Part shown: positions 3,074-61,379 of the stretch, one piece after another | How the letters are laid out: the number at the start of each line of letters is the position of its first letter | How positions within the stretch are numbered: the first letter of the stretch is position 1 | Assembly (NCBI GenBank): GCA_964019165.1 | Contig: OZ025280.1 | Location: 13,262,428 to 13,326,427, forward strand | Direction of reading: 5' to 3' | Origin: Mastigias papua | Taxonomy: Eukaryota > Cnidaria > Scyphozoa > Rhizostomeae > Mastigiidae | Length of the DNA stretch: 64,000 bases | Position numbers and translations under genes: made by a program | The notes under the pieces: generated by a model | Databases searched by the model: none | Seen by the model: only the letters and a program-made list of their open reading frames with translations | Told to the model about the DNA's origin: nothing

Positions 3074-4236
3074 ACAACATCCATCATTTCTGTCTCTCTC
3101 TCATCAATACTGGAGCCTTTGATGAAGACTATGGGAGACTTGGACATGGCAAAAACTGGAGTTTTGCTGGTAAACTGAATATCCCTAGCATAGGTGGTTC
3201 TAGATGCAGCGAAATGGACAATGTGGCCTTCTAACAACAATAGCATGTCATTCCTAGGTAAGATAGCTGGAGTATACCGAAAGTCATTCAAACAGAAAAC
3301 TTCTTTGTCTTCAACCCCTAGCCACGCATACAAACAAGTCACAGGTGAAAGGAACGTGTTATAAATAACTCATAAGGGGTCAAGAATGAATGTTTTACCA
3401 CAGTTTGCTGGACCTGTAATGTATTACGGCCCTTCCCGAGACCCATGGTGAGTAATGTAATAATGGCATCAGCAAATATGCTTTGCTGAATGTCATTGTT
3501 ACAGAGAATCTGCTTGGCACACTGCAACCACTCACCTTGACAAACACACGTATCATTATACACCTTTTTGAGGAGATCAGTGCGGGACATTGATCTCCTG
3601 TCTAATGTTTGCTGTGCCCTTTCCATTGACCATACAGACTGTATGAGTTTGTTCAATTTTCTCACCTCTATTCAATACCAACTCATACAGCCTGCTGTCA
3701 CCATTCGTTTTTCTCTTTTTTGCCAGAGCAAGGATATGTAACTTGGAGTCAATGCTGTGCGAGACAATGATGTTGGAGACTTCCACGTTACTAAGCCATT
3801 TCTTCTGTGCACCTTTGCCTTTCTTATGTGACGAACAGTTCCGTATTGCCGAAGATGTCTTAGGGACAGCACTTGAAGCTGGGTGATTCTCGCTTCTCAG
3901 AACCTGGGTATCCTGCTTTGTAACATACTGGTAAGCTGTATGATACCCAGAGTAACCTGAGAAGTTAACAACGATAATTCCATGTTCCTGGAGATATTTA
4001 TTAACTTTCCTCCATCTCTGAAGCTTGCTCAAAAGAACACACATATGAAAATGGACACCCACATCCTTATGATGTTCCATGCAACATGCCCATTGAATGA
4101 TGAGGGCTGTTTTTACAGGTTGGAAAGCAGGTGTTACACTTTTTGCGAAGGACTTGCGATTGAACCTTTCTGTATCTGCTTGACTATATGTTAGCAGATA
4201 CACTTTTCTAACTTCAGTTTTATTTAGTTGAGCCAT
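3074..4236 (-). pseudogene. Broken Rep (HUH nickase / SF3 helicase) of element A
   Basis: Degenerate paralogue of the intact Rep at 22250-23524. The first 219 codons (4236-3577) are open and keep the nickase motifs LLTYSQ, HFH and YVTK. The frame then breaks in the linker near 3665. The helicase part resumes in another frame (3665-3339), breaks again just before the Walker A loop near 3420 and meets a stop near 3370. It continues at 3342-3074 with LNDFRYTPAIL and SSIDERETEMMD. The last ~35 residues are lost at the truncation. With two shifts, a stop and a missing end, it cannot encode a working protein. The open nickase domain alone could in principle still be translated. Confidence 0.85.
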
Positions 4237-4921: not shown

Positions 4922-5195
4922 TAATAGTCGCCAAAGTCCTGGGACACTCTGCACTTTGTTACTCTGCGCTCATCTCTCCCTCCTCCCCTTAAACAATGGT
5001 GAGTTTTGGAAGGAGTATATACGATAGTGGACAAATTTCACTTTTCCAATAGCGTCAAGTGTCTCCTCCATCAGCCAACATTGTTCCTGGGGGGGGGGGG
5101 GGGGTTGCCTGTAAGGTGTAAAAGTAAGGAAGTTCAGAGGACTATGGTTTTTTTCCTTTTTCTGTATGTGTCCCAAGGACTTCTGGCGACTATTG
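4922..5195. repeat. Terminal repeat with nested inverted repeats, element A
   Basis: 274-nt terminus whose two ends are inverted copies, ending ...GGACTTCTGGCGACTATTG at 5195. Inside lies a G-rich inverted pair: CTCCTCCCCTTAAACAATG near 4978 against CATTGTTCCTG plus a run of 16 G at 5089-5104. TA follows at 5196-5197. Its orientation relative to Rep is the same as in element 2. Long G runs on one strand could form quadruplexes. Confidence 0.8.
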
Positions 5196-10018: not shown

Positions 10019-10295
10019 CAATGGCCGCCAAAACTCTTGGAACACTATGCTTCTTATCTCTGTATGCTGTCTCCCCTCCCCCTATACAATGTTGTAATAT
10101 GGCTAGGAAATGAAGAAAAAGTGAGATCTAAGTTGACCAAGTACACCAAACATCCTGGGACATATTCCTCCGTCTTCTCAACATTGTTTCAGGGGGGAAG
10201 GGGGGGCTGTTTGTATGAAATACGACAATGAAGTGTGAAATATCTATTTCCTGGCAATTCCACGCTACTGTTCCAACTACTTTTGGCGGCCATTG
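10019..10295. repeat. Left terminal repeat with nested inverted repeats, element 1
   Basis: 277-nt terminus. The outer ends CAATGGCCGCCAAAA and TTTTGGCGGCCATTG are inverted copies. Inside sit CTCCCCTCCCCCTATACAATG and CATTGTTTCAGGGGGG. The copy at 13957-14235 differs at roughly a dozen positions by eye and is in the same (direct) orientation. Confidence 0.85.
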
Positions 10296-10408
10296 TCTTT
10301 TCACAATATCGAAAACGGCCATTAGGAAATCAGAACAAACGTTCACATGGGGGTTTTCTGGGGTGCTGATTTCAGTGGTGAAGTTTAAATTTTGATCAGA
10401 ATGGTGCG

Positions 10409-10416
10409 TGACGTCA
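10409..10416. promoter_or_regulatory. TGACGTCA palindrome inside the left terminus, element 1
   Basis: Perfect 8-bp CRE-type palindrome (GTGACGTCAT context) 112 nt inside the terminus, preceded by GGGGGTTTTCTGGGGTGCTGA. The same block recurs at the same distance in the other termini of the family, so it is likely a functional site: either a CREB/ATF-type promoter element or a Rep or transposase site. Confidence 0.5.
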
Positions 10417-10625
10417 TAATAGCTAAAAGGTTGTTTTTCAATACCATATTTTATATGTTTTGCAAGATTATCCGTAGAAAACTTAGATTTCTATTAATAT
10501 CAATCATACTATGTCTGTCTGTCCTACTTATCCAACAACGCTACTTGCATGGTTCTGAAACAGATCTTTTATACTGCCAGTGTCACATGAAATACATTGG
10601 AATGTTAATATAACATAAGGAACCA

Positions 10626-11206
10626 TGTGTGAGTGAGGGCCAGTGGTTGTGCTGCGCTTTGGAGATTTTGGACAATAATGATGTCAATAGGGCAGTTTTC
10701 TCTGACGCCAGTATTAAGCTTCTTGTAATGGGTGGAGGCAAGGGCAAAAATATATAGATATAAATATATGTGGGCCAGCGAATTGTGGCAAAACATGTAT
10801 ATCAGATCCCCGTCACATCAGTCATAAGTCCTTTCGTTCTCCGGCCACATTTTCCTATGCTTGGCTGGGATTATACGAAAAAGAAATCATTTTCCTGAAT
10901 GATTTCAGGTACTTTTCGATAATTATACCAAAGAGTGATATGTTGTTATTATTGGAAGGCCACATCGTCCATTTCGCAGCTCCCAAAACATCTTACAGCG
11001 AGGCTATCTTGTTCCAGAAAGACACTCCACTTTTTGCGACAGCCAAAGCACCCATTACTGTCGTAACGAATGGTCACCTAGACGAGCGCGAGACTGAAAT
11101 GACTGTACGATGGCGTATTTTTACATTCCGCAATGAAATACCTCTGGATAAATGACAAGATGTTCACATTTGTGGACATTGCTTTGCAAGCCTGCTGTTA
11201 TCTTAC
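10626..11206 (+). pseudogene. Rep remnant: SF3 helicase domain, element 1
   Basis: Homologous to residues ~231-420 of the intact Rep at 22250-23524. It starts with CVSEGQWLCCALEILDNNDV, keeps a GPANCGKT-type Walker A loop near 10775, an FLNDFRYF Walker B region near 10895, LLLLEGHIVHFAAPKT at 10943 and DERETEMTVRW near 11085. A stop interrupts the end at 11153, but the next codons still read CGHCFASLLL, matching the CGTCFAHLIL tail of the intact Rep. The reading frame is broken around the Walker A loop. The HUH nickase half is absent. Confidence 0.8.
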
Positions 11207-11253
11207 ACAGTGTGTTGCTGTTGCTGATGCTTCCTCGTTTGTTCTAAATGTAG

Positions 11254-11663
11254 CCACGGTCTACGAAATGTCTCCACGGTCTACGGTACGAAAAGTACAG
11301 AAAACGTCCGTTGTTTCCAATATTGTCATTTAATAACATACTTGTCAAGCGTGCACTGATGTAGGTAACATAAGACATGAACTATTTCAGGCCAAATTTG
11401 TAGTAATCGGACGATAGACCCGAAAGTGTCACAGTCTACGGCAAATTTGTATATGAATTACATCATCAGATATATCATTCTTGAAAACAGCGTAGACCGT
11501 GCCTTTCTTCCTGAAATACGTAACTTCTGATGCATTTTACGCCGCCACAATTCACAGGAAGATACTGTATCGTCATGCACGTCTATTTGATAGTTTTGAA
11601 CGAGATTGATGCAAACAGTCATCTTTTATTAGAGTAAACATTCTCATTTTCCCACCGTAGACC
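11254..11663. repeat. Iteron cluster downstream of Rep, element 1
   Basis: CCACGGTCTACG occurs twice, exactly 20 nt apart (11254-11265 and 11274-11285). CACAGTCTACGG is at 11430, and the inverted forms CGTAGACCGTG at 11491 and CCGTAGACC at 11655. The shared core ACGGTYTAC matches the iterons at the equivalent place in element 2, though the elements are otherwise diverged. Candidate Rep-binding iterons; function is inferred. Confidence 0.5.
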
Positions 11664-11948
11664 ATTGCAGAAATCGATAGCCATCACGCTCCTGTCATCA
11701 TTACCATGCATGGATAAATATATCACTTGGCGATTTAAGCTCGTAGATATTATTACATCTGTAGATGGATGACTTGAATCGGTGCAGTGTTATGGATCTA
11801 TTGACACGCAATAACGTCCTGCTCAGAGTAAGAGATATTTGCTCAATAAATATAGATGTTTGTCTTCACAGATTGATTATATACTGACAGTTAAAAACAT
11901 AAAATGGTATAACTACAATTATCAATATTGTATACGATAACCCTTATT

Positions 11949-13046
11949 TCATGATAGTATTTTTAGCCTATTAGGTAGCGAGGCACTTGTTTTATCAATG
12001 GTAAATACATTACAGTTTTTCAAATGTTTACCAACTCTCTCTTTAAACTGAAGAAACGACTCTTTTGAAATCTTCTGTTCCATGGCCTCCTTTTTCAATG
12101 CCACTTTTACGATGTGAAACACATTTTCGATGGGATTAATGTCTGGTGATCTAGGTGGAATATTAAGAAACTGTAAGCCGCATTCTTCTATAGCATCAAG
12201 TGCCACTTTACTTGTCTGGCAAGGATCGTTGTCCATTACGAAGATCAACTCCTCTCTTCCTTTCATCTCTGCCAATTGCAGTAGCCTACTATGCAGCGTG
12301 TTTTGTACAAATGTTGCAAAATAATGTCCCTGCATTGTTGCGTACTCTTCCAGTAAAACAACGCCACTTCTACTGCTTATGCCAACTAGAAAATGGATCC
12401 TTCTCCCACCAGCAAGATTGTTTGGTCCTTTTGCGGTCACCCTAAGTCCTTCATTCTAAGTCACCCTAAGTTCGCCCTAAGTTTTTCTTCTATACACCTT
12501 CCCCTGCGCTGAAACAGCTTCTTTGTACGGGTTACTCTTGTAAACAAATGAAACACCATCTAAATACAGCAAGACCTTATCACTCCAAAATCTGGTATCA
12601 TATCTGTTCAACGCATCTCTCGCAAATTTAACGCGTTTTTTCCTGTCCTCTACAGACAAGGCGCCCTTTCTTATTGCCGTTAGTCTATAATAATTCGCTT
12701 CGTTCAAGGCACGTATTAAAGTCCTGCGGCTGACGTGGGTCATTACCGCTTCTCTACCAACCTCCAGCACTGTCACATTCAAGTTTTCCTCTCTCATTGC
12801 CAAAAACTTTCGTAGAAATCGGCTCCTATCTCTGTCCGTAAAGATGTGTGGTCTACCAGGTTTTAGTTTCTTCATGTTATTTTCGCCTTTATCCTTTGCC
12901 ATTATGCCCTCTCTACATATTCTCAGGACAGATGATGCGGAGACTTGGCAACGCCGGCTTATTTGTCTTAATGATAGTCCTCCCTCCTTTCTCAATAAAT
13001 GGATATACGCTCTTGTCTTGTCGGCTATTTTCCTTCTGAATACCAT
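11949..13046 (-). pseudogene. Tc1/mariner-type transposase, element 1, with two stops
   Basis: DDE_3-type transposase in the orientation opposite to Rep. It starts at 13046 (MVFRRKIADK) with helix-turn-helix DNA-binding sequence (LSLRQISRRCQVSASSV) and a second HTH-like part. The catalytic core shows LLYLDGVSFVYKSNPY, FVMDNDPCQTS and RSPDINPIENVFHIVK. Two TAG codons lie in frame at about 12474 and 12453 within a short imperfect tandem duplication of ACTTAGGGTGAC; the frame on both sides is the same. It is clearly homologous along its length to the transposase of element 2. Otherwise near full length, so inactivation looks fairly recent. Confidence 0.85.
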
Positions 13047-13834
13047 ACTTGTTGATGAACAGAGCAGATGATACACTATATAGGTACGCTTATATTTCAA
13101 AATATACAGATATATATACAGAACTGTGAACAATGGGGGATCGACAACCACATGATAAGATAATGTCATTGTGGTTCAATGCCAATAGTTTTCGCCCTTA
13201 CAGTTTGGGCGCCAAAAGTTTGCCCTTACATTTTGGGCTCCAAGAACAGATTTCGTGTATATCACGTGGTTTTCGATCCTTATTTTTCTTGTTTAAATGT
13301 ATTACAGATGTAGCCGCGCAGTTATGCTGGAAGATGTTCTCATGCTGCCAGCCTTACTACAAATATACAGATATGTTTTTACTACAGGTTTCAGTGTAAA
13401 CAGTTACTTGGTATTGCAATTTTCATGAAATGACATGAGTACCACGCGCTCCATACACAAACAGTTACATTCCTTTATCCTGTTTGACATATATTGTAGA
13501 ATACCTTTATTGCTGTAAACATTTTATTATATTTAAAATAAATTGACGTGTGCTATATTATAAACATGTTCATTATTTGCGTCAAAGCGATGAAGTTACG
13601 AGGATGAGAATATGCAGCCTCGGTTTCATTGACATTTGATGCTTATTTAACTACCCCAGTTCCATGGGAAACCGAAGTCATCAGGGAAACCCGCCACCCC
13701 CCATTGTTTCTGCATGGAAATAGGTTATTTATCTAAACAACCAATAACTATAAATTACCTTCCAGTGTATTCAGACATGAAAGCAACATTTGTTTATAGA
13801 GAGATAATATAGAATATTAGAGTTGAACTAAATA
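13047..13834. other. Interior of element 1 upstream of the transposase; no gene seen
   Basis: About 790 bp, longer than the matching ~290 bp of element 2. It contains a local repeat of a TTTGGGCGCCAAAAGTTTGCCC type near 13190-13235 but no convincing open frame. A TATATA-rich stretch at 13075-13125 lies just upstream of the transposase and may hold its promoter. Confidence 0.4.
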
Positions 13835-13842
13835 TGACGTCA
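13835..13842. promoter_or_regulatory. TGACGTCA palindrome inside the right terminus, element 1
   Basis: Read from the right end inward, GTGACGTCAT lies 113 nt inside the terminus, after a GGGGTAATTGGGGG stretch, mirroring the left end. Confidence 0.5.
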
Positions 13843-13956
13843 CCGATTCGTTATACAGCTTTACTTTTTGTTCCATTGAATTTGCGACCCCCAATTACCC
13901 CAGGATAGCCATCTGTGATATTTCAATATCAGTCACGTTTAAAGAAACGAAAAAGA

Positions 13957-14235
13957 CAATGGCCGCCAAAGCTCTTGGAACACTATGCTTCTTATCTCTG
14001 TACGCTATCTCCCCTCCCCCCCTATACAATGGTGTAATATGGCTAGGAAATGAAGAAACATTGAGATCTAAGTTGACCAAGTACACCAAACATCCTGGGA
14101 CATATTCCTCCGTCTTTTCAACATTGTTTCAGGGGGGAAGGGGGGGCTGTTTGTGTGAAATACGACAATGAAGCGTGAAATATCTGTTTCCTGGCAATTC
14201 CACGCTACTGTTCCAACTACTTTTGGCGGCCATTG
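13957..14235. repeat. Right terminal repeat with nested inverted repeats, element 1
   Basis: Same sequence as the left terminus with about a dozen differences, and in direct orientation to it, although the sequences just inside the two termini are inverted relative to each other. TA follows at 14236-14237. Confidence 0.85.
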
Positions 14236-14998: not shown

Positions 14999-17692
14999 CT
15001 AATGATCTGCATATCTGACGTTAAGTCCCTCAGGTATAAAGCTCTGTAGTCTAAACTGCCAGAATCCCTCCTTATGTCTAGATACTCCAAATACCCTATC
15101 TATAATTTGAAAACTAACATCCTCTAAAAATCCATGATGGTTGGCTTCTGTAAAATGTCTAAACAACTCTGCCTGCGTCACTGCTACTCCACTAGAAAAC
15201 TTCCTACTAGATGACTTATAATTGTTAAACCTGGCTCTAAATGATGTAAAGGTGCTACCTACATACTGCTTGCCACATACTTTACAGCCTAATAAATACA
15301 CTACCCCTGAAGAATCGCAATTAAAATCACTATTTATATCATACTCCCTACCTGAAACATTACATCTAAACCCACTACCCTCTGACATATAACTGCAAAC
15401 TTGACATCGCGCTTTACCACACCTAAAACAACCCCTAACTCCTTCTGTCCGAATCTTAGGAAGCTTAGCTCTAACTAGATTATCCTTCAAATTTGGTGCC
15501 CGTCTGAAGACCACAAGAGGCTGCTCTTTAAAGGCCATCCTGTGTTCTTCAGACGCTTCTAACATGGTATGGAGTTTCCTAATTATGCCCCTAAGCTCAT
15601 TAAGTGCTGGATGGAATGTAACTACTAATGGAACCTGATCCTTTCTCTTGTCATTACATCTACCTTCCTGGTTAAAAAGTCTTTCTCTGTCTAAACTACT
15701 AGCACGAACTATCTGCTCCCTAACGAAATCCTCCTTATAACCCCTATCTACTAACCAACTCACTAACTCCTCCGACCTCTTTCTGAACTTCTTCTCATCT
15801 GAACAAATTCTTCTAATTCTAAGAGCCTGTCCATATGGGATTGCTTTTTTGACGTGCCATGGGTGACAAGAGCTCCTCTGCAAATACTGGTGTGTATCAG
15901 TAGATTTGCAGTAGAGATCTGTCTCCAAGGCCCGTCCCTTTCTACTTACTAAAACATCCAAATAACTGACACTATCCCTTGATTTCTCTGTTGTAAACTT
16001 TATTGTTTGATGATAACTATTAATATACTCTACAAAACTACATAACTTTTCCTCGCCATGTGTCCAAATAAAAAACACATCATCAATGTACCTGTACCAA
16101 ATCCAAGGCTTAACTTCACAACTGTTCAACATATCTTCTTCTAAACTGGACATAAACAAATTGGCATATGCCGGAGCAAACTTTGTGCCTATTGCGGTTC
16201 CTAACTTCTGCTTATACACTTTACCATTAAACTCAAACACATTACTATCTAATACTACTTTTCCTAAACTAACTAATGACTTTGTAGAAATTGACGGATT
16301 CTGCCTTGTGTCCAGGGCTTTACGCATCGCCTCCAAACCTTCACCATGTGGAATATTAGGGTAGAGGCCCACAACATCCGCTGTACATAATAAGGCATTG
16401 TCCGGAATTTCACCTAACTTAGCTAGCAACGACAGAAAATGATTAGTGTCCTTAACAAATGATTTACTCTTACTAACTAGAGGATTAAGGTGGAAGTCCA
16501 AATATTCTGAAATATGCTCTGTAGCTGTACCACAATTACTAATAACCGGCCTACCTACAACATCTGACAATCCCTTATGTATCTTAGGCAACAAATAAAA
16601 TCGACCCAACTTCGAACCTCTAACCTGCAAGTACTCAGCCTCCTTATCCGATAAAGCATGTTCACAAACCTGGATCTCCGAAACTACGTTACTAACCTCT
16701 GCTTCTAACTCTGATAAAGGACTACTATCTAACTCTTCATACACACTACTGTTATCTAACTGTCTATAAGCTTCCGCACAATAATCTTCTCTGTCCCAAA
16801 CCACCACTGCTGACCCTTTATCTGCTTCCTTAATAACAATAGTCTTGTCAGATTTAAGATCATACAATGCCTGTCGTTCCCCGATGGAAAGATTACTAAA
16901 GTTTCTACCTTCGGGTACAATAGACAAAGCTTCGCTTTCAAGAAGAGAGAGATAGGATTCTAATATAGGATCGGCCCTGGGAGGATTCCAACCTGACTTA
17001 ATGTAAAAAGAGGGACCATTATTATTATCATGATTATTATTATCTCTACAACTACTACCTAAACTACTAACATCATTACTATTGTCTCTAAAATACCACT
17101 TCAGTCTCATTTGCCTCTTAAATTCTTCGATATCCAACTTTAGCTGACTTTTGTCAATGTCTCTAGGAGTAGGCGAAAACTTTAACCCTCTTGATAACAA
17201 TTTAATCTGATCTTCCGTCAATCTCTTGCACGACAAGGTCACCACACTCCCAGAGACAAAGACGCCAGTCAGTCTAGAGCCAGGAACATCGGTAAATACC
17301 TCTTCCTGATTGTCGCCAACATCGATCATTCCCTCTTCCTCAAATCCCGTGTGCTGTAACCCTTCTTCACTGAACAGGTCACAAACTAGGTGGTTCTTTG
17401 CCTTTAATTGAGTTTGCCAATCACCAATGAACTCGATGTTCTCCTTTTCACATAGCGTCCTTGCCTTTCTCAGCCTTCTGTCCATTAACTTCAAATACTC
17501 AGTCCTGATATTGTCTTTGAGTTTCTTCATGTCCCTAACATGAAGTTCAGGTCTCCATCTCCTCAGACTGTCATAGCACTTTCTCTCCATACCGTCATGT
17601 TGCTCCCTATAGTGTAATACTACGAGCGCTAAAAAGGACATTTCTGCTTGCCGTGAAACTTCTGACCATTGCTCAATAAATTGATCCGACAT
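14999..17692 (-). CDS. Penelope-like reverse transcriptase with GIY-YIG endonuclease (897 aa)
   Basis: Single open frame with the complete Penelope architecture. Residues 1-330 are an N-terminal region leading to SDKTIVIKEADKGSAVVVW. The RT follows with LLPKIHKG, CTADVVGLYPNIPHGEG, GTAIGTKFAPAYANLFM and the active-site box YRYIDDVFF near residue 535. A Cys-rich linker (CFRCGKARCQVCSYM) precedes the GIY-YIG-type nuclease, VVYLLGCKVCGKQYVGST near residue 797 then RFNNYKSSSRKF. The longer open frame to 17713 takes its first seven codons from the neighbouring inverted copy, so the ATG at 17692 (MSDQFIEQW) is preferred. No internal stop or shift is seen; it could be a recent, possibly competent copy lacking its own 5' leader. 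Confidence 0.9.
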   Translation of the reverse strand: MSDQFIEQWSEVSRQAEMSFLALVVLHYREQHDGMERKCYDSLRRWRPELHVRDMKKLKDNIRTEYLKLMDRRLRKARTLCEKENIEFIGDWQTQLKAKNHLVCDLFSEEGLQHTGFEEEGMIDVGDNQEEVFTDVPGSRLTGVFVSGSVVTLSCKRLTEDQIKLLSRGLKFSPTPRDIDKSQLKLDIEEFKRQMRLKWYFRDNSNDVSSLGSSCRDNNNHDNNNGPSFYIKSGWNPPRADPILESYLSLLESEALSIVPEGRNFSNLSIGERQALYDLKSDKTIVIKEADKGSAVVVWDREDYCAEAYRQLDNSSVYEELDSSPLSELEAEVSNVVSEIQVCEHALSDKEAEYLQVRGSKLGRFYLLPKIHKGLSDVVGRPVISNCGTATEHISEYLDFHLNPLVSKSKSFVKDTNHFLSLLAKLGEIPDNALLCTADVVGLYPNIPHGEGLEAMRKALDTRQNPSISTKSLVSLGKVVLDSNVFEFNGKVYKQKLGTAIGTKFAPAYANLFMSSLEEDMLNSCEVKPWIWYRYIDDVFFIWTHGEEKLCSFVEYINSYHQTIKFTTEKSRDSVSYLDVLVSRKGRALETDLYCKSTDTHQYLQRSSCHPWHVKKAIPYGQALRIRRICSDEKKFRKRSEELVSWLVDRGYKEDFVREQIVRASSLDRERLFNQEGRCNDKRKDQVPLVVTFHPALNELRGIIRKLHTMLEASEEHRMAFKEQPLVVFRRAPNLKDNLVRAKLPKIRTEGVRGCFRCGKARCQVCSYMSEGSGFRCNVSGREYDINSDFNCDSSGVVYLLGCKVCGKQYVGSTFTSFRARFNNYKSSSRKFSSGVAVTQAELFRHFTEANHHGFLEDVSFQIIDRVFGVSRHKEGFWQFRLQSFIPEGLNVRYADH

Positions 17693-17693
17693 T

Positions 17694-19291
17694 ATTTGTT
17701 GCCTAAGATACATAAGGGATTGTCAGATGTTGTAGGTAGGCCGGTTATTAGTAATTGTGGTACAGCTACAGAGCATATTTCAGAATATTTGGACTTCCAC
17801 CTTAATCCTCTAGTTAGTAAGAGTAAATCATTTGTTAAGGACACTAATCATTTTCTGTCGTTGCTAGCTAAGTTAGGTGAAATTCCGGACAATGCCTTAT
17901 TATGTACAGCGGATGTTGTGGGCCTCTACCCTAATATTCCACATGGTGAAGGTTTGGAGGCGATGCGTAAAGCCCTGGACACAAGGCAGAATCCGTCAAT
18001 TTCTACAAAGTCATTAGTTAGTTTAGGAAAAGTAGTATTAGATAGTAATGTGTTTGAGTTTAATGGTAAAGTGTATAAGCAGAAGTTAGGAACCGCAATA
18101 GGCACAAAGTTTGCTCCGGCATATGCCAATTTGTTTATGTCCAGTTTAGAAGAAGATATGTTGAACAGTTGTGAAGTTAAGCCTTGGATTTGGTACAGGT
18201 ACATTGATGATGTGTTTTTTATTTGGACACATGGCGAGGAAAAGTTATGTAGTTTTGTAGAGTATATTAATAGTTATCATCAAACAATAAAGTTTACAAC
18301 AGAGAAATCAAGGGATAGTGTCAGTTATTTGGATGTTTTAGTAAGTAGAAAGGGACGGGCCTTGGAGACAGATCTCTACTGCAAATCTACTGATACACAC
18401 CAGTATTTGCAGAGGAGCTCTTGTCACCCATGGCACGTCAAAAAAGCAATCCCATATGGACAGGCTCTTAGAATTAGAAGAATTTGTTCAGATGAGAAGA
18501 AGTTCAGAAAGAGGTCGGAGGAGTTAGTGAGTTGGTTAGTAGATAGGGGTTATAAGGAGGATTTCGTTAGGGAGCAGATAGTTCGTGCTAGTAGTTTAGA
18601 CAGAGAAAGACTTTTTAACCAGGAAGGTAGATGTAATGACAAGAGAAAGGATCAGGTTCCATTAGTAGTTACATTCCATCCAGCACTTAATGAGCTTAGG
18701 GGCATAATTAGGAAACTCCATACCATGTTAGAAGCGTCTGAAGAACACAGGATGGCCTTTAAAGAGCAGCCTCTTGTGGTCTTCAGACGGGCACCAAATT
18801 TGAAGGATAATCTAGTTAGAGCTAAGCTTCCTAAGATTCGGACAGAAGGAGTTAGGGGTTGTTTTAGGTGTGGTAAAGCGCGATGTCAAGTTTGCAGTTA
18901 TATGTCAGAGGGTAGTGGGTTTAGATGTAATGTTTCAGGTAGGGAGTATGATATAAATAGTGATTTTAATTGCGATTCTTCAGGGGTAGTGTATTTATTA
19001 GGCTGTAAAGTATGTGGCAAGCAGTATGTAGGTAGCACCTTTACATCATTTAGAGCCAGGTTTAACAATTATAAGTCATCTAGTAGGAAGTTTTCTAGTG
19101 GAGTAGCAGTGACGCAGGCAGAGTTGTTTAGACATTTTACAGAAGCCAACCATCATGGATTTTTAGAGGATGTTAGTTTTCAAATTATAGATAGGGTATT
19201 TGGAGTATCTAGACATAAGGAGGGATTCTGGCAGTTTAGACTACAGAGCTTTATACCTGAGGGACTTAACGTCAGATATGCAGATCATTAG
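17694..19291 (+). pseudogene. Truncated Penelope RT plus GIY-YIG endonuclease
   Basis: Open frame of about 530 residues covering RT from LLPKIHKG through YRYIDDVFF to the nuclease and the ending NVRYADH. The upstream ATG at 17669 adds nine codons from the antisense of the neighbouring copy (MLNKLIRHY), so translation of a chimeric protein is possible but not expected. The N-terminal third of the family protein is missing. Confidence 0.85.
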
Positions 19292-21204: not shown

Positions 21205-21206
21205 TA

Positions 21207-21483
21207 CAATAGTGGACAAAAGTTCTTGGGACACTTACGGAAAAAGTAAAAAAAACCATATTCCTCTGAACTTCCTTACTTTTACACCTTATAGGCAACC
21301 CCCTCCCTCCAGGAACAATGGTTGCTGATGGAGGGGACACTTGACGCTATTGCACACGTGAAATTTTTCCGCTATCGTATATACTCCTTCCACAAACCAA
21401 CATTGTTTAAGGGGAGGAGGGGGATGAGAGATGAGCGCAGAGTACAAAATTGCAAAGTGTCCCAGGACTTTTGTCCACTATTG
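21207..21483. repeat. Left terminal repeat with nested inverted repeats, element 2
   Basis: 277 nt. Outer inverted pair: CAATAGTGGACAAAAGTTCT and its counterpart ending CTTTTGTCCACTATTG. Inner pair: CCCCCTCCCTCCAGGAACAATG and CATTGTTTAAGGGGAGG. Confidence 0.85.
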
Positions 21484-21597
21484 TCTGGAGGTAAAATTTT
21501 TCAAAACACGTTATACCTGTAATGTATTGGTCGGTCAAGGGGTAATCGATGGTGCTGAACACGATGGCGATGATACAAATGGTGTAAGTCACCTCTG

Positions 21598-21605
21598 TGA
21601 CGTCA
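21598..21605. promoter_or_regulatory. TGACGTCA palindrome, element 2 left
   Basis: GTGACGTCAT starts 113 nt inside the terminus, about 650 nt upstream of the Rep start. It is followed at 21628-21642 by a small hairpin (CTGCC, loop TCTGT, GGCAG). Element A has the equivalent GTGACATCAT and a similar GCCTCTGTGGCAG. Confidence 0.5.
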
Positions 21606-22249
21606 TACCGCGTGGGGGTCTATCGGTCTGCCTCTGTGGCAGTGTACCTGCCTAAAGCGATAATACGATGAAAGGGTTATTGCTGGAACACACTTGTATC
21701 AGTAGATCAAGCATCGTGGAACATGTCCTGAGAATATGTACAAAATTGGGAGCAACTTAGCTCTCTATATACGTGAGTAATGCCCTTGTGGTATGTGTGT
21801 GTAAAAACTTGCAAACGAAGCTACCACACAATCCTCTGTTAATAATAATCATCATCATTATCTAGAGGCAGATTTTCATTTATACATTTTTATACAAGTA
21901 ATTTGGCTCTTTGGTAGTATGTACAATCTGAAAATAGCTTCTCATCATGTAGTGTTTCACCTGTATTTTTACGAGAGAGATAAGCTTTTTGACCGCAAAA
22001 GCGCCATTTTAATGGTCGATATCTACTGCATATGTCCATTACCGGTAAAGTGTTTGGAAAACTTCCGTTTTCACACAATAAGCACACGGCAGGAATATTC
22101 AAATTATTCCTCGTGGCACACACGTAGCAGTTGGCTACAGAGAACGACAATAAAATCACAGACATAATAGTCCAATTATTCATTGTATAGCAAAAGTAGC
22201 ACTTGCGTACAGAGAACGACACGAAAATCACAGAGATAGTAATATCATA
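21606..22249 (+). promoter_or_regulatory. Rep upstream region
   Basis: About 640 bp largely alignable with element A (4237-4806). Conserved landmarks are GGTCTATCGGT, GAACATGTCCTGAGAATATG, a TATATA at about 21764 (CTCTCTATATACGTGAG), GGTATGTGTGTGTAAA, and a repeated CAGAGAACGACA...AAAATCACAGA unit (22137 and 22211) ending just before the ATG. Conservation across two diverged copies suggests promoter function; a transcription start cannot be fixed. Confidence 0.45.
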
Positions 22250-23524
22250 ATGGCTCACTTAAATAACAATGAAGTTAGAAAAGTGTATCTGCTAACATAT
22301 AGTCAAGCAGATACAGAAAGGTTCAATCGTGAGTCCTTCGCAAAACGTGTAACAACTTCTTTCCAAGCTGTAACAACCGCTCTCATCATTCAATGGGCAT
22401 GTTGCATGGAACATCATATGGATGCGGGTGTCCATGTTCATACGTGTGTTCTTTTGAGCAAGCTTCAGAGATGGAAAAAAGTTAAGAAATATCTCCAGGA
22501 GCATGGAAATATTGTTGTTAACCTCTCAGGTCACTCTGGGTATCATACAGCTTACCAGTATGCTACAAAGCAGGATACCCAGGTTCTGAGAAGCGAGAAT
22601 CACCCAGCTTCAATTGCTTTCCCTAAGACGTCTTCGGCAATACGGAACCGGTCATCACATAAGAAAGGCAAAGGTGCACAGAAAAAACGGCTTAGTAACT
22701 TGGAGGTCTCCAACATCATTGTCTCACACAGCATTGACTCCAAGTTACATCTCCTTGCTCTGGCAAAAAAGAGAAAAACGAATGGTGACAGCAGGCTGTA
22801 TGAGTTTGTATTGAATAGAGGTGAAAAAAGAGTGAATGAACTCATACAGTCTGTATGGTCAATGGAAAGGGCACAGCAAACGTTGGACAGGAGGTCAATG
22901 TCCCGCACTGATCTCCTCAAACAGGCCTATAATAATACGTGTGTCTGTCAAGGTGAGTGGTTGCAGTGTGCCAAGCAGATTCTCTGTAACAATGGCATTC
23001 AGCGAAGCATATTTGCTGATGCTGTTATTACATTACTCGCCATGGGTCGTGGGAAGGGCCGTAATATATATATTACGGGTCCAGCGAACTGTGGCAAAAC
23101 AGTCATTCTTGACCCCTTACGAGTTATATATAACACTTTCCTTTCACCTGCGACTTGTTCGTATGCGTGGCTAGGGGTTGAAGACAAAGAAGGTATCTTT
23201 TTGAATGACTTTCGGTATACTCCAGCTATCTTACCTTGGAATGACATGCTATTGTTGTTAGAAGGCCACGTCGTCCATTTCGCTGCGCCTAAAACCACCT
23301 GTGCTAGGGATATTGAGTTTACCAGCGACACTCCAGTTTTTGCCACGTCCAAGTCTCCCATAGTCTTCATCAAAGGCTCCAGTATTGATGAGAGAGAGAC
23401 AGAAATGATGGATGTCAGATGGAGACAGTTTCACTTTTTCCATCAGATTCCCATTTCTTCTCAAAAGACAGTGACACCATGCGGCACTTGTTTTGCACAC
23501 CTTATACTCGACGTGGTAGAATGA
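22250..23524 (+). CDS. Rep protein: HUH endonuclease plus SF3 helicase (424 aa), intact
   Basis: Replication initiator of the rolling-circle or rolling-hairpin type. The nickase domain shows motif I VYLLTYSQ (12-19), motif II VHVHTCVLL with the HUH histidines H62 and H64, and motif III YQYATKQD with a single catalytic Tyr104 and Lys107 (YxxK). After a basic linker (HKKGKGAQKKR, 137-147) comes an SF3 helicase: Walker A GPANCGKT (277-284), Walker B GIFLNDFRY (315-323), motif C PVFATSKSP (362-370) and an arginine-rich IDERETEMMDVRW. It ends in a CGTCFAHLIL tail with a CxxC pair also kept in element 1. At 424 residues it is longer than most CRESS-DNA Reps and shorter than parvovirus NS1; its GPxxxGKT loop is nearer the latter. 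Similar Rep-like proteins occur in marine invertebrate genomes. No stop or shift; the start agrees with element A (MAxLN). Confidence 0.9.
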   Translation: MAHLNNNEVRKVYLLTYSQADTERFNRESFAKRVTTSFQAVTTALIIQWACCMEHHMDAGVHVHTCVLLSKLQRWKKVKKYLQEHGNIVVNLSGHSGYHTAYQYATKQDTQVLRSENHPASIAFPKTSSAIRNRSSHKKGKGAQKKRLSNLEVSNIIVSHSIDSKLHLLALAKKRKTNGDSRLYEFVLNRGEKRVNELIQSVWSMERAQQTLDRRSMSRTDLLKQAYNNTCVCQGEWLQCAKQILCNNGIQRSIFADAVITLLAMGRGKGRNIYITGPANCGKTVILDPLRVIYNTFLSPATCSYAWLGVEDKEGIFLNDFRYTPAILPWNDMLLLLEGHVVHFAAPKTTCARDIEFTSDTPVFATSKSPIVFIKGSSIDERETEMMDVRWRQFHFFHQIPISSQKTVTPCGTCFAHLILDVVE

Positions 23525-23592
23525 TAGGTAGCAATAGGTATAATAGCCCCCCACAGTCTTTATGGAATCTGTGCTATTGTATACATATGCCT

Positions 23593-23638
23593 TGACAATA
23601 AGACACTGCGGGCTATATCCCGCTGTGTCTGGTTGTCA
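23593..23638. repeat. 17-bp stem hairpin just downstream of Rep
   Basis: Stem TGACAA/TTGTCA, 2-nt internal loop, AGACAC/GTGTCT, one T-T mismatch, GCGGG/CCCGC, loop CTATAT. It lies 69 nt after the Rep stop and 12 nt before the first iteron. Placement beside iterons is what a Rep origin would look like. The loop lacks the canonical TAGTATTAC nonanucleotide. Confidence 0.6.
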
Positions 23639-23649
23639 TATATGCTACA

Positions 23650-24062
23650 GTTTACACGGTTTACACCCACAGTTTACACTTGTAAAATGCTCTATAGTTC
23701 TTCTTACAATATGTATTTACCGTTTGTAAACTATGTAAAAGATGTACACAGTTTGTGTACATCCGATGGAGCTCTTAAAAGCATATAGAACACGCTGTAG
23801 TACCAGAAAAATCGACATTTCTCGACGGTTTACACTTCTGAAGACTTAAGACTCAGATCATGTGACTTTTGATAGAAAAATTTTGTAAACTGTGCAGTTT
23901 TCCTTCCTTACTGCAAAATATGTGTATGAAAAATATAATAAAAAATCACTGCCAGATGTACAACGATTGCGTACATCTGGTACAGTAGTCAGTTTCCCCC
24001 TTAGTTCAAGTGAAATGGCCTTTTTCAGTAGATTTTCAAGTGTAAACTGTGAGTGTAAACCG
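23650..24062. repeat. GTTTACAC iterons, 26-bp inverted repeat and two hairpins
   Basis: GTTTACAC occurs at 23650, 23659, 23672 and 23828; the reverse GTGTAAAC at 24040 and 24053. The segments 23657-23682 and 24037-24062 are inverted copies with one mismatch in 26. Between them lie two perfect 10-bp hairpins: GATGTACACA/TGTGTACATC (23741-23763, loop GTT) and CCAGATGTAC/GTACATCTGG (23952-23980, 9-nt loop AACGATTGC). No open frame is convincing here. The most likely role is a Rep-bound origin; a small nested MITE is the alternative. Confidence 0.65.
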
Positions 24063-24375
24063 TTGCTACTACCAGTTGTTGTTGTTGAGTATGAGTTCTA
24101 TGGGAGCACATACAAGTGTGTGATTTAGTATGATCAGCAGAAAGTTGCTTGTCCACGGTTTCCTTTGAAATATTCAAGGTTTCGGCATCTTCTCCAAATG
24201 TACTATGATTGTTCACGTTGGAAAGGAACCTAGAAAAGACTTAAAACTCTGGAGTATTAGGTTTAGTATCGACAAGAACTCTACTTATATACTACTTATG
24301 AGAACTACTAGCCATGGGGGTATCAGGCCCCCTGCCCCTCAGAGTCCCTTGTGTTATCATTAGAGTACCTATGTA
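24063..24375. other. Spacer between the iteron region and the transposase 3' end
   Basis: About 310 bp. GTTGTTGTTG at 24076 is a short triplet repeat; nothing else is recognisable. Confidence 0.4.
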
Positions 24376-25555
24376 TTATGTAGGTGTTACAGCACTTACA
24401 TTTGTACGCATCTTCTCTGTCCTAAATAAGTTGTGTACAGTTTTACATAAGAGTATCCAAGTGCACAAACATAGTGAATATTTCGTTTGGCACCCTCTAT
24501 TTTTAGTCATTGTAATTAATCGGTTATACATGCTACTTATTGTTTTATCTATGATACCTATGTCATAATTAGAAATAGTGCGCACAAGTCTATGCTTAAA
24601 TGCAATTAAATCTTCATTTACTATCCTATTATCTAAGGCATCTTGCCTGAGCTTCCTTTTAACGTTATGAAAGACATTCTCTATGGGGTTTAAATCTGGG
24701 GACTTTGCCGGAATTTTAACGACCTCTGCCCCTATATTGTTTAGTGCTTCTTTTGCTTTCGCACTGTTTTGGCTCGGGTCATTGTCTTGAAGAAAAAGCA
24801 ATTTATACTTTCCTTTTGCAGCAGCCCGATCAATAAGTATTTTATGCACACTTTGTTTGATACATTTCGAAAAGTATTTTCCGTTCATTGCCGTATACTC
24901 CTCAACCAGCACTGCTCCGCCCCCAAAAGAAATGCCTACTGCATAGTGACACATATTTCCACCCCTGAGATCTTTTCTCCCTTTTGCTGTTAGCTCCAGA
25001 CCTTCACCAGGTGTTCTCCACACCCTGGCGGCTGGCGCCAATGCATCCTCATAGGGATTTCGTTTGTGGACAAACGACACTGCATCTAAGTACAGCAGAA
25101 CATCCTCTGTCCAGAAAGCTGGAGTCGTATGTTTTACAGCCTTAACTGCATACGCAACCCGTTTCCTTTTGTCACTGGCCGTGAGGATACCTTTTCTCCT
25201 TGGCCGAACATACTTATACCCAGACTGGTTGAGAAGTCTACACAACATCTTAGTACTAACATGATGGAGTTCACACTCCATGGCAATAGCCCCTACCGTC
25301 AAGTTTGGATTTTGTTTTCTCATACATTTAAACTTTCTGAGAAAGCAGTCCTTCTCTCTTCTGTTGAGTATTGGAGGTCTACCAGTCAGTTTTTTAGGCA
25401 GTTTACACTCCATACCCAATTTAGAGATGCGCTCGACGCTAGACTTAGAGATGTTACATAGAGTAGCAATCTGACGAAGCGACAACTTACCCTCTTGTCG
25501 CAATAAGGTAATGTAAGCTTTGTTTGTAATCTGTTATCTTACCGTATTTCGCCAT
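24376..25555 (-). CDS. Tc1/mariner-type DD34E transposase, element 2 (one frameshift near the start)
   Basis: Cut-and-paste transposase of the IS630-Tc1-mariner group. The open part (25503-24376, 375 aa) has an N-terminal HTH (LSLRQIATLCNISKSSVERI), a second HTH region to ~100, a GRPP hinge (41-44), and the DDE core: LLYLDAVSFVHKRNPYED (D140), LLFLQDNDPSQNS (D240) and AKSPDLNPIENVFHNVKRKL (E275), exactly 34 residues apart. The likely start is the ATG at 25555 (MAKYGKIT), aligned with MVFRRKIAD of element 1. One extra base near 25528-25531 puts it out of frame with the rest. The family usually ends at ...GxxTKY; here CQTKY is followed by 33 extra residues before the stop. Transcribed towards Rep. 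Confidence 0.85.
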
Positions 25556-25843
25556 GACACCTCACTCGTTGAGAACTGTTACAGTCGACTTTTGCTGCCA
25601 GGGGCAACCGATTATGAAAGCACTTTAGAAGCCACAGTGAACTGCATGATTACGAGGCTACCCCCTTGGTGCTTTGCTGTGTGCACCACATTATTCAAAC
25701 TCCCCTTGTTTTTGTGTCGTATAGAGGGTATACTCTTGTAGTTTGCTAAACACGACTTAAATGTGAACTACTATATGCAAACGTGCCTTTTATTTGCACT
25801 TTAAGGAGGCAAGGACCATAAAACCTACCCCATGACGTTGGTA
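25556..25843. other. Transposase upstream region, element 2
   Basis: About 290 bp between the likely transposase ATG and the inner TGACGTCA block. Expected to hold its promoter; nothing diagnostic seen beyond ACACCTCACTCG-type GC-richer stretches. Confidence 0.35.
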
Positions 25844-25851
25844 TGACGTCA
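25844..25851. promoter_or_regulatory. TGACGTCA palindrome, element 2 right
   Basis: Read inward from the right end, GTGACGTCATACC begins 113 nt inside the terminus, after GGGGTTTTCGGGGGCGCTGA. It matches the layout of the left end and the GGGGGTTTTCTGGGGTGCTGA of element 1. Confidence 0.5.
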
Positions 25852-25965
25852 CAGGGTAGACCTATGGGAAAACTCTTCACACCATCACACTCAGCGCCCC
25901 CGAAAACCCCATGTTCCGACCTGATTGCAGCTCAGTAGTGTCTATAGCGAAAATCTGATAGCAGA

Positions 25966-26241
25966 CAATAGTGGACAAAAGTCCTTGGGACACTTACGGA
26001 AAAAGTAAAAACACCATATTCCTCTGAACTTCCTTACTTTTACACCTTATAGGCAACCCCCTCCCCCCAGGAACAATGTTGGCTGATAGAGAGGACACTT
26101 GACGCTATTGCACACGTGAAATTTTTCCGCTATCGTATATACTCCTTCCACAAACCAACATTGTTTAAGGGGAGGAGGGGGATGAGAGATGAGCGCAGAG
26201 TAAAAAATTGCAAAGTGTCCCAGGACTTTTGTCCACTATTG
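25966..26241. repeat. Right terminal repeat with nested inverted repeats, element 2
   Basis: 276 nt, about ten differences from the left terminus and in direct orientation to it. TA follows at 26242-26243. Confidence 0.85.
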
Positions 26242-26250
26242 TAAGTCACT

Positions 26251-32445: not shown

Positions 32446-32721
32446 CAATGCCTGCCAAAAGTCTTGGAACACTTGCTATGATTTACGCTATAGATGAGCT
32501 ATAACATTCCCTCCCCTGTTAAACAATGTTGTATGAAGCAAATATGGGCAACTTGATGGCTAATAGTGATGCATATTTTTAAAACTACTGTTCTCCGCTA
32601 TCGAATCAACATTGTTTCAGGGCGGAGGGGGTCTACATTTTAAGTGGTGTCAAGGAGAAGCGGCAGGAGTCGGAAATCAGTACAATTGTGTGGGTGTCCC
32701 AACTACTTTTGGCAGGTATTG
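32446..32721. repeat. Solo terminal repeat of a third, diverged Rep-element subfamily
   Basis: 276 nt with outer ends CAATGCCTGCCAAAAGTCTT and AACTACTTTTGGCAGGTATTG, and the same inner architecture (CCCTCCCCTGTTAAACAATG against CATTGTTTCAGGGCGGAGGG). TA follows on the right (32722-32723) but not on the left. No TGACGTCA block is found at ~113 nt on either side, so it is a lone terminus or a MITE derived from one. Confidence 0.6.
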
Positions 32722-38583: not shown

Positions 38584-41500
38584 CTTCTTCTTCATCTTCG
38601 AGTGCCGTGTCAAAAGACGTTGGCAGCAACGAGTTCTCTTTGCGATGCTTTTCTAACAAGTTCTATCGTGTTGTCACAATTCGTCCACTCTACAAGTTGG
38701 TTTGTGAATAGCATTCTTCTTCTCCCATGTGTTCTTTTTCCTACAATTTTACCAGTAACTACAAGGTATTCCAGTTTATCTTTCCTCATTATGTGCCCAA
38801 AGAAAGAAATTTGTCTTTTCGAAATGTCTGACATGATGTTGCTGTTTTGAATAGTCTTATTCAGTACTTCTTCATTGGTGATCTTTTCTGTCCATTTCAC
38901 TTTTTCCATTCTCCTCAGGAACCACATCTCAGCCGCTTTGATCTTCCTGATGTCTGTCTTGTTTAATGTCCAGTTTTCACTTCCATACAGCAATATTGGT
39001 GTAATGTAGCATTTCAAGATTCGGTATCTCAACTGGAATGGCATCTTAAGGTTCGTCAATATAGCTTTCATTTCTATGAATGCGTTCTTGGCTACTGCAA
39101 TCCTGCACTTGATGTCTACTGTACTCTTGGCATCAGATGTCATGATGCTTCCCAGATATTTGAATTGATTTACTTGTTTCAGTATTTCACCATTCAAGCT
39201 TACTTTTATCTTAGGGGGTTGCTTTCTCTTGCTGAAAACCATAACTTCAGTCTTTTGTACATTAATTTGCATTTCAAAATTTTCACATTCTTTTTGAACA
39301 GCATCAAGCAATTTCTGTAGACTCTTTTCACTTTCTGCTATAAGAACTGTGTCATCTGCAAATCTGATGTTATTTATATTGACACCACCTATTTTCACCC
39401 CCTCTAATGTATCTATTGATCTAAGGATGACTTCAGAGTATAACGAAAAGAGATCCGGTGACATTACACAGCCTTGTCTCACTCCTCTTGCACTTTCTAC
39501 GAAATTTGAGAGTTGGTCTTTTAAGCGTATGTTGGCTTTCTGCTTAAAGTAGAGATGTTGCACGAGCCGTAGATCTCTGTCTTGAAACTCAAGGTCACTG
39601 AGCAATTCAAATAGGATGTTGTGCTGAACTCTATCGAAAGCTTTGGTAAAGTCGATGAAGCAGCAATATAGGTTCTTGTTCACTTCAATGCATCTCTCTG
39701 CTAAATTTTTCAGCACGAACACGGCATTTCTTGTTCCTTTATCTGGCATAAATCCATACTGACATTCGTTGATTTCTTGATGTATGCTTGATTTCATTCT
39801 GTTTAACAATACTGTCAGTAGTAATTTTGTTGTGTGGCTCATTACACTTATTGTTCGATAATTCCCACATTCAATTGCTTTCGGCTTCTTAGGAATTGGT
39901 ATAAATGTGGATTCCAGAAGGTCATCAACAATGTCACCATCGTTATACATTTCATTGAAAAGCCTCTCAAGAATGTCAACTCCAGTATCTCCTAGGTACA
40001 TTAGAAGCTCAACAGCAATTTGATCATTACCAACCGCTTTCCCTCTTTTCATACTTTTCATTGCTCTGCGTATTTCATCTTTCAAAATGATTTCTCCGGT
40101 GAGATGTCCTTCAAACTTTATGGTTTCTCTATCTCTATTCTCATCCCCATAAAGGTCTTTGATGTACTCCTCCCATCTTTTCATTATATCATCCTTATCT
40201 AGTAAGATCCTTCCTTTTTTGTCTTTTATCACATTCCCATCATTTCTGTTTTTCCATAGTTTTCCAACAACCTCTTTGATATTTTGATGACATTCTTTAG
40301 GACTTATGATTTTCAATTTTTCAATTTCTTGACACTTCTTCTCAAAGAATTCAATTTTACTTTGCATACACATTTCTCTTACTCTTTTATCAAGTATCTG
40401 GTATTTTTCAGTGTTCCTTTTCATCTTCCTTCTTTCTTCCATTGTTTCTAATATTTTCTCTGTCATCCACGTTTGCCTGTTATTCTTTTTCTTTGGAACA
40501 AATTCCCTTTTGATGTTATTACAGATTTCCTTGTATGTTTCCCAAGTACTTTTCTCTGATGATTGTCTCTCTGTCCATAGTGTCTTAGCTGCTTTTTGCA
40601 TGTTTTTCATCATTTCTGTGTTTACTGCTTCGTAGTCATGTCTCATTCTTACTTCTCCTTTGTGTGTTTTCTTGAAGCAAGTTCGAACACAAGCCACTAG
40701 CAGTTGATGATCACTGCCAGAGTCTGCACTTGGGTATGTCTTACAGTCTAAAACTGAGTTTCTCATCCTACTATTCACACAGATGTAATCAATTTGATTC
40801 TGCGTCCGATCTCCTGGGCTTCTCCAAGTGTAAAGTCTGCTATCTCTATTCTTAAAACACGTATTCGTGATTATTAGTCTGTTTTGTTCACACCAGTTTG
40901 TGAAGTCTTCACCTCTATCATTGCCCTCACCAAGTCCGACCATTCCACAGGCTTTACTTTTGTTATTCAAGCCAACTTTAGCATTCCAGTCTCCCATAAC
41001 TAGCTTGACTTCTCTATGTTTGCTTTTTGACAAAGCGATATTTACCTCCTCATAGAACTTTTCTATTTCTTTGTCACTACTGCCTGATGTTGGTGCATAT
41101 ACTTGTATGATAAATGTATCTGTTGGATGTCCTTTCAATCTCGCACACAATACTCTGTCCGAGATATGCCAGTATCCTTTCAAGCTCTTTGAGTTTTTCT
41201 TGTTTATTAATAATGCTACTCCTCTTTCTGATCTTTTTTCATTTCCTGAGTATAAGAAGGTGTAATCTCCAAACTGTATTGTGCCACTATTTCTCCATCG
41301 CGTTTCTGCCAAACCTAGAATGTCAATCTTTACCCTTTCCATTTCCTTTGTTACATTTGCTAACTTCCCGGGTTGTAGGAGAGTTCTTACATTCCATGTT
41401 CCAATCTTCTAGCAACTTTCTTATTTTTATTTCTGTTTCCCCCTCTTTTTGTTTCTGTTTTTGTTTTTGTGACAGTAGCTGGATGACGGTCGGGAGTGTC

Positions 41501-41709
41501 CTGTCTCTCAACACTGCACCTACCGAGCGCGGCCTCCGTGTTACGGATTCCGTTGACGCTGTTGTTTTCATTCTTGTAATTATAACTCATTGATTACTAG
41601 GCAGAATAATGGAGAGGTTTGCCGTTGCCAATCCATCCAGAGCCTCGTTAGCAGGCATTGAAATGCCTCCCAGGGGACACCGCGTGGAGGTGAGGTTGTG
41701 TTATCCCCC
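38584..41709 (-). mobile_element. RTE-type non-LTR retrotransposon, copy 1
   Basis: Inserted in the Copia 5' LTR with an 11-bp target duplication TATATACTCAT (38573-38583 and 41710-41720). The intact 3' LTR has this site once. The 3' tail is a short GAA-repeat (CTTCTTCTTC on the plus strand), typical of RTE simple-repeat tails. Confidence 0.9.
38610..41590 (-). pseudogene. RTE endonuclease-reverse transcriptase, one-base frameshift
   Basis: Single-ORF RTE protein: AP endonuclease (IDILGLAETRW, VMGDWNAKVG, IDYICVN, GSDHQLLVA), then reverse transcriptase (KAVGNDQIAVELL, FIDFTKAFDRV, GVRQGCVMSP and the active site IRFADDTVLIAES), then the C-terminal RTE region (FFGHIMRKDKLEYLVVTGK). 910 residues are open from 41342. 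The first ~80 residues (from 41590) are separated by one missing T at about 41408, relative to the intact copy at 58162-61143. RTE/BovB clade by motif pattern. Confidence 0.9.
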
Positions 41710-41826
41710 TATATACTCATATGCGCACGTTTTGTTACCAATTGCAGTTATGTTATGTTGATGGAATACGTTTATCTCTAAATCATAAAGTTATCATTTT
41801 ATTTATCGTTGCTCTGCTAAGAGGTT

Positions 41827-61262: not shown

Positions 61263-61379
61263 TATATACTCATATGCGCACGTTTTGTTACCAATTGCAG
61301 TTATGTTATGTTGATGGAATACGTTTATCTCTAAATCATAAAGTTATCATTTTATTTATCGTTGCTCTGCTAAGAGGTT

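Follow-up and report, generated by a model that had tools for sequence, protein, structure and literature searches.

Members of the IS630-Tc1-mariner superfamily, among which Sleeping Beauty and Mos1 have been solved, ordinarily carry one gene between terminal inverted repeats, and cut-and-paste transposons gain copies only indirectly. Helitrons join an HUH nuclease to a Pif1-like SF1 helicase in one protein, make no target duplication and have no DDE transposase. AAV-type ITRs and the hairpin termini of parvoviruses occur in flip and flop orientations. A further layout, LTDR-INT-LTDR with solos and multimers, was described for KolobokP by Kojima and Bao (2022; PMC9587614), who call it unlike any other DNA transposon.

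The window analysed here is a single stretch of 64 kb. Its element at 21207-26241 reads, in order, TA, a 277-nt repeat, an HUH/SF3 Rep gene on the plus strand, iterons, a DD34E Tc1-type transposase gene on the minus strand, a 276-nt repeat and TA (Table 1). An initial sequence-only reading had placed these boundaries correctly, with TA outside each end, and had rightly recognised termini; these are, however, long direct repeats (LDRs; left against right, E 3e-131), each with its own inverted ends of 24-30 nt. Folded as single-stranded DNA, the left LDR gives a z of -6.85. A second locus had been described as having the same order, which holds, but only the helicase half of its Rep was found and both of its genes are broken; its right and left LDRs differ at 10 of 278 compared positions. 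Beside the LDR and Rep of a third copy in the window, no transposase match was found.

Table 1. Features of the three copies and the solo LDR in the 64-kb window.
Feature	Coordinates	Strand	Remarks
Left target duplication TA	21205..21206	.	read from sequence
Left LDR	21207..21483	+	inverted ends CAATAGTGG...CCACTATTG; TC directly inside
Rep, 424 aa	22250..23524	+	open frame
Iterons (ACRGTTTACAC)	23647..24063	.	candidate replication origin
DD34E Tc1-type transposase frame	24376..25527	-	probably defective here
Right LDR	25966..26241	+	97% to left, equal orientation; GA directly inside
Right target duplication TA	26242..26243	.	read from sequence
Second element (subfamily S1), left LDR	10019..10295	+	TA outside, TC inside
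Second element, Rep remnant	10614..11200	+	only helicase half found, frames broken
Second element, iterons	11255..11663	.	CACGGTCTACG; spacing as in first element
Second element, transposase	11925..13013	-	interrupted by stops; 42% to first
Second element, right LDR	13957..14235	+	TA outside, GA inside
Third, truncated copy, left LDR	4923..5195	-	89-90% to 21-kb element; TA outside
Third copy, Rep	3076..4236	-	with stops; 67% to intact Rep
Solo LDR	32446..32721	.	subfamily 78% like array LDR; left TG, right TA

N-terminally, Rep is an HUH nuclease in which both HxH (HVH at 62-64) and YxxK (Y104..K107) are present, and C-terminally it is an SF3 helicase with GPANCGKT at 277-284. Across 30 aligned homologues the nuclease and helicase motifs are retained in at least 90%, and C411, C414 and F415 do not vary. 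Fold comparison placed Rep nearest to AAV Rep, parvovirus NS1 and papillomavirus E1, at identities of 9-22% to the listed matches. Many relatives of Rep sit on short contigs, only a few kb long. No relative turned up in IMG/VR or in prokaryote genome contigs when these were scanned with sets of two to six short peptide patterns. The window Rep and that of C12 differ in 24 codons, 13 of them nonsynonymously, which by itself shows no constraint; between subfamilies, third codon positions hold about half of all differences. The iterons are arranged as forward copies, 156 nt, forward, 59 nt, reverse, 156 nt and reverse copies, and this spacing is identical in four subfamilies, that of the 21-kb element and three others. 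When four iteron centres were compared by eye, no common nick motif was recognised.

The transposase has a DDE_3 catalytic domain with DD34E spacing, a Sleeping Beauty match and a Tc3-type HTH match, which in the window copy falls below Pfam's cut-off. At both ends the frame in the 21-kb element differs from those of the 359-aa relatives, and the copy is therefore likely to be defective; the genome search returned other copies in which the Rep and transposase frames are both open. Named relatives of the transposase come from the cnidarians Dendronephthya, Paramuricea and Exaiptasia. A by-eye check for shared contigs against a second list of transposase matches gave few lengths in common, from mixed sources, and we draw nothing from it.

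In the 347-Mb host genome, each of the 14 Rep loci scored in the 21-kb element's subfamily also holds the transposase, and the same plan recurs in two further intact subfamilies. The searches scored the best candidates only (99 of 1389, 40 of 1220, 40 of 1163 and 113 of 999), so that these counts are lower bounds biased to the best matches. Divergence of Rep is correlated with that of the transposase (r = 0.89 for the distances in 8 pairs), the co-divergence that had been proposed as a check. Where both outer edges could be read (13 loci), they were TA/TA at 10, TA with a one-base offset at 1, TG/TG at 1 and TT/TT at 1; judged from these edges, insertion appears to take place mostly at TA with a 2-bp duplication. 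The pairing, the correlation and the outer TA bear out the earlier claim of a persistent combination and not a chance neighbourhood. The pairing has gaps: the third window copy has Rep without a transposase match, and at 3 of the 15 transposase loci in the subfamily no neighbouring Rep was scored.

The LDRs are alike within subfamilies, measure 276-279 nt and share one orientation in every element where both were seen, with no flip-flop of termini. Their inner edges read GA-LDR-TC at 38 of 39 places. In the 21-kb element's subfamily, an element's own left and right LDRs are no closer to each other than to those of other elements (in one element they differ at 32 of 275 positions), except in three identical copies, which also match one another. 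Of ten solo LDRs tested, nine have TA on both sides. Head-to-tail arrays, with a unit of about 5,047 bp and one LDR per junction, occur in at least 27 small contigs. Units read from nine contigs show nearly no substitutions; uniformity among the array hits is in part a selection effect, since only the top candidates were scored. Another array subfamily (C40) likewise lies in a small contig, and the C1 dimer retains TA/TA. When the ATG frames of the array unit are listed by length, just two exceed 130 aa, Rep and transposase; hence no capsid gene was seen, nor is a His-Me finger homing endonuclease among these frames.

With modest confidence we read this as an integrating replicon, that is, a Tc1/mariner-type composite element in which a DD34E transposase is encoded beside a replication initiator of the HUH/SF3 type. 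The reading draws on features visible in the sequence: the fixed plan LDR-Rep-iterons-transposase-LDR, the 2-bp, mostly TA edges, the likeness of LDRs within subfamilies, the arrays with one-LDR junctions, the solo LDRs and the correlated divergence of the two proteins. The composite itself, as first proposed, stands, and its transposition is well supported. For the self-replication claimed alongside it, the arrays and the iteron spacing fit, and we infer that Rep is the replicating agent. A circle with one LDR would form by LDR-LDR recombination or by Rep action. Rep would bind the iterons lying between both genes, its SF3 ring would open the DNA, and rolling-circle-type replication of the circle would yield head-to-tail concatemers. 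The transposase would recognise the inverted ends of each LDR, cut LDR-internal-LDR pieces, longer ones or single LDRs from the chromosome or the concatemer, and insert them at TA. Since the LDR edges in a concatemer are GA and TC, cleavage there would have to occur at edges that lack TA, a point against this reading. A new copy would draw both LDRs from a single repeating template, and they would initially be identical. More tentative, and in our estimate short of an even chance, is the further step to a transposing replicon of a new class, which would alternate between an extrachromosomal stage, a circle or concatemer driven by Rep, and TA-inserted copies made by the Tc1-type transposase, with the 5,047-bp arrays as its replicating form. 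We count against the replicon reading that a left LDR is not closest to its own right LDR, that TG/TG and TT/TT insertions occur, and that the transposase loci without a scored Rep and the third window copy break the pairing.

Unequal crossover can also produce arrays and solo LDRs, and a single young satellite within a chromosome, left unassembled, could account for the array contigs. If so, the transposase alone spreads the element, with Rep contributing at most nicks that stimulate crossover between the direct LDRs, as has been suggested for the homing endonuclease of KolobokP. We regard this as possible but doubtful. KolobokP has an equal set of forms (single, multimer, solo), for which induced unequal crossover is proposed (PMC9587614). 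The TA/TA kept by the C1 dimer is what crossover would leave, and TA on both sides of solo LDRs is what recombination of an element's two LDRs would leave. The nearly substitution-free pieces from nine contigs and the second array subfamily speak against it, and an SF3 helicase with conserved iteron spacing exceeds the needs of a nickase.

It is improbable that a small DNA virus captured a Tc1 transposase to integrate, with the arrays arising from its replication or representing its integrated genomes. The nearest folds of Rep and the short contigs carrying its relatives would suit such an origin, but the array unit's two frames, the empty pattern scans of IMG/VR and the termini without flip-flop do not. 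A rolling-hairpin parvovirus was rejected, with neither flip-flop nor a capsid frame in the array unit. We give similarly little credence to Rep as a passenger or regulator, for example one that times transposition, that does not replicate the element: transposition alone would explain the dispersed copies, and the nonsynonymous changes relative to C12 would agree, yet the retained motifs, the third-position differences, the correlated distances and the iteron spacing all argue against it. That two MITEs merely flank unrelated genes is scarcely credible. Each LDR does have inverted ends of its own, and solo LDRs occur, but inner edges of GA and TC instead of TA led us to reject this explanation, and the plan recurs at every Rep locus scored in the subfamily as well as in two more intact subfamilies.

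If the integrating replicon is real, a Tc1-type element has an initiator and origin of its own; it would then be a DNA transposon that replicates by means of a virus-type Rep, and possibly a bridge from small DNA viruses to transposons. In a transposing replicon, Rep would multiply the transposase's substrate ahead of integration. The array contigs open the replicon idea to direct testing.

Like the IS630-Tc1-mariner superfamily, the element has the DDE_3 domain, DD34E spacing, Tc3-type HTH match and mostly TA insertion; unlike in ordinary members, its LDRs are direct and enclose a second gene and an iteron region. Its Rep shares the order of HUH then SF3 helicase domain, and fold matches, with AAV Rep68, parvovirus NS1 and geminivirus and other CRESS Reps, but differs from these viral initiators in having a DDE transposase as partner and no capsid gene seen in the array unit, and flip-flop ITRs of AAV type are absent. 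Helitrons are likewise eukaryotic transposons with one protein joining an HUH nuclease to a helicase, whereas the present element has an SF3 helicase, a 2-bp duplication and a DDE enzyme. No described family of this composition had been recognised at first, and full-text searches of the literature gave no account of a Rep/DD34E pairing; the layout, in contrast, is known from KolobokP, the nearest published one that we found. In both, long terminal direct repeats with short inverted ends of their own enclose a DDD/E transposase and a second nuclease, and both form solo repeats and multimers with one common repeat. The enzymes differ (KolobokP pairs a Kolobok transposase with a His-Me homing endonuclease, the present element a Tc1/mariner DD34E transposase with an HUH/SF3 Rep and iterons), as do the repeat lengths (about 450 or 660 nt in KolobokP). 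Since the paper calls the KolobokP layout unlike any other DNA transposon, the present element would give long-direct-repeat transposons a second, separate case.

An HUH/SF3 replication initiator (Rep) and a DD34E Tc1-type transposase (Tnp) almost certainly belong to one composite element here, bounded by long direct repeats (LDRs) with inverted ends of their own. In the subfamily S2 element the LDRs measure 277 and 276 nt, start with CAATAGTGG, end with CCACTATTG and have TA outside each, and they enclose an open 424-aa Rep frame, an iteron region and the transposase frame. The transposase matched DDE_3 (E 1.6e-13); among solved chains Sleeping Beauty came closest (E 4.5e-7), and 34 residues separate the second D from the E. 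This copy's frame diverges at both termini from 359-aa relatives and is probably defective. The sequence-only reading had placed the same plan at the S1 locus; the order matches, but only broken helicase pieces of Rep and a broken transposase were found there. The truncated third copy in the window gave no transposase match. Across 30 aligned Rep homologues C411, C414 and F415 are invariant, and residues 411-415 are a possible metal site at the helicase end.

Features of the window, with strands where reported
Feature	Coordinates	Strand	Content
S2 element	21207-26241	Rep (+), Tnp (-)	LDR-Rep-iterons-Tnp-LDR plan
Second element (S1)	10019-14235		plan like that of the S2 element, broken
Third copy, truncated	3076-5195		LDR and broken Rep
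Solo LDR	32446-32721		LDR alone
LINE-type frame, paired with a 468-aa frame (+)	38610-44871 and 58162-62786	-	LINE-type frames of 910 and 993 aa
Head-to-head frames	14999-17713 and 17669-19291	- and +	reverse transcriptase and weak GIY-YIG matches

The head-to-head frames are presumably Penelope-like. At both LINE-type places a 468-aa frame (+) follows the LINE-type frame, with a Copia gag match at the first, the one searched, so this neighbour pair seems to occur twice.

The host genome (346.8 Mb in 172 contigs) yielded 101 Rep matches with 99 of 1389 candidates scored, and the counts are therefore lower bounds: at least 14 S2 loci (16 rows) and two loci of subfamily S3 (contigs C20 and C14). 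C1 accounted for two further rows, and 23 small contigs for 81. The transposase was present at all 14 scored S2 Rep loci, in some copies only as pieces and on C13 about 4 kb from Rep, which upholds the earlier claim that the two genes share one element rather than occupying separate ones; the third window copy lies outside these scored matches. Within the scored subset of Rep candidates, 12 of 15 S2-type transposase loci adjoin a Rep match, and three (two on C21, one on C3) have no scored match nearby. Both frames are open in several copies.

Beyond the host, we compared 117 Rep and 117 transposase hits, each with a stated source-contig size. On contigs above 6 kb, 7 of 54 Rep hits matched a transposase hit's contig exactly in size (shifted-size control: mean 0.0125, maximum 1); over all sizes the figure was 10 of 117, against a mean of 1.3 and a maximum of 7 in the controls. 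A common megabase contig is not adjacency, and homologues P0001 and P0025 share such contigs with transposases of only 44-46% identity. The predicted co-divergence was recovered from distance matrices, with r = 0.89 over 8 pairs (three from the host, five matched by equal contig size) and 0.88 once the 3,915-base pair was dropped; P0001/P0139, P0012/P0230, P0025 with P0143 and P0144, and P0017 and P0095 with P0123 (near-copies of S2) were excluded.

We read the outer edges on both sides of 13 loci: the window copy, the second element, C12, C17, C6, C10 (two), C13 (three), C14, C20 and C1. They were TA/TA at 10, as had been claimed for the flanks; of the other three, one has TA shifted by a single base at its right edge, one TG/TG and one TT/TT. 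One insertion sits in a CATA microsatellite. Copies L044 (C13; TG/TG) and L036 (C20; TT/TT) may be rare insertions at dinucleotides other than TA. Two separate MITE insertions would leave TA at the inner edges as well. Instead, GA preceded or TC followed the LDR in 38 of 39 cases, one of them past a changed LDR base, and the exception was GG; the count covers these elements together with four incomplete copies and two array junctions. Transposition of the element into TA is well supported.

LDR size is nearly constant (276-279 nt) over subfamilies S1, S2, S3 and ST (the array type), and both ends have the same orientation wherever both were seen. Identity is 96-100% inside each subfamily and only 46-56% among them; left and right LDRs of 10 elements differ at no position in three, at 6-10 in six and at 32 of 275 in one. 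Judged from these alignments, the two LDRs evolve in concert at subfamily level, as expected if a single template supplied both when a copy arises. Against the simple version of that origin, an S2 left LDR is no nearer to its own right LDR than to those of other elements, except in three identical copies, which also match one another. Among 40 S2 LDR copies scored of 1163 candidates, 14 seem partnerless by position; of the ten with edges read, nine are solo LDRs flanked by TA left and right, with an extra base in one case, and one ends a truncated element.

On at least 27 small contigs (Rep and transposase searches combined), units of LDR-Rep-iterons-Tnp run head to tail with a period of about 5,047 bases and one LDR at each junction; 98 of 113 scored transposase matches fall on 26 of these small contigs. 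Rep and transposase are the unit's only ATG frames above 130 aa. Array LDR matches were 100% identical among the best 40 of 1220 candidates, an identity partly selected. Set against a single unit, pieces of nine array contigs show 0-1 substitutions; small gaps also occur, as many as 21-22 in one stretch. A chromosomal dimer on C1 (LDR-unit-LDR-unit-LDR, TA/TA around the whole) differs from the array unit by 18 substitutions in 5,047. Sampling of 19 further small contigs with 301-base probes (three read N) found an array-type junction LDR of a different subfamily on C40 (82%) and internal pieces on C90 and C120 (71-75%); further subfamilies, at 71-82% DNA identity, are thus also on small contigs.

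Iteron words differ (S2 ACRGTTTACAC; ST CAACGGTCTACAC; S1 CACGGTCTACG; S3 CACGGTTTACCATT, the last on the + strand of a locus where the element is reversed). The layout is common to the four subfamilies: two forward and two reverse positions lie 154-156, 56-61 and 154-165 nt apart, and one outer position or both hold the iteron twice (in S3, on the transposase side). We infer that this region is a candidate origin bound by Rep, which would likely drive copying of the element as a circle or concatemer.

Under the terms used, no such Rep/Tc1-type transposase element was found described in the full-text literature. KolobokP shares the LTDR-INT-LTDR plan, solos and multimers, and combines a Kolobok transposase with a His-Me endonuclease; its authors proposed induced unequal crossover and discussed circles (PMC9587614). 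Such crossover may also lie behind the multimers and solos of the Mastigias papua element. Where KolobokP has the endonuclease, however, this element encodes a complete replication initiator alongside an origin-like region, and that partner makes replication the more natural reading.
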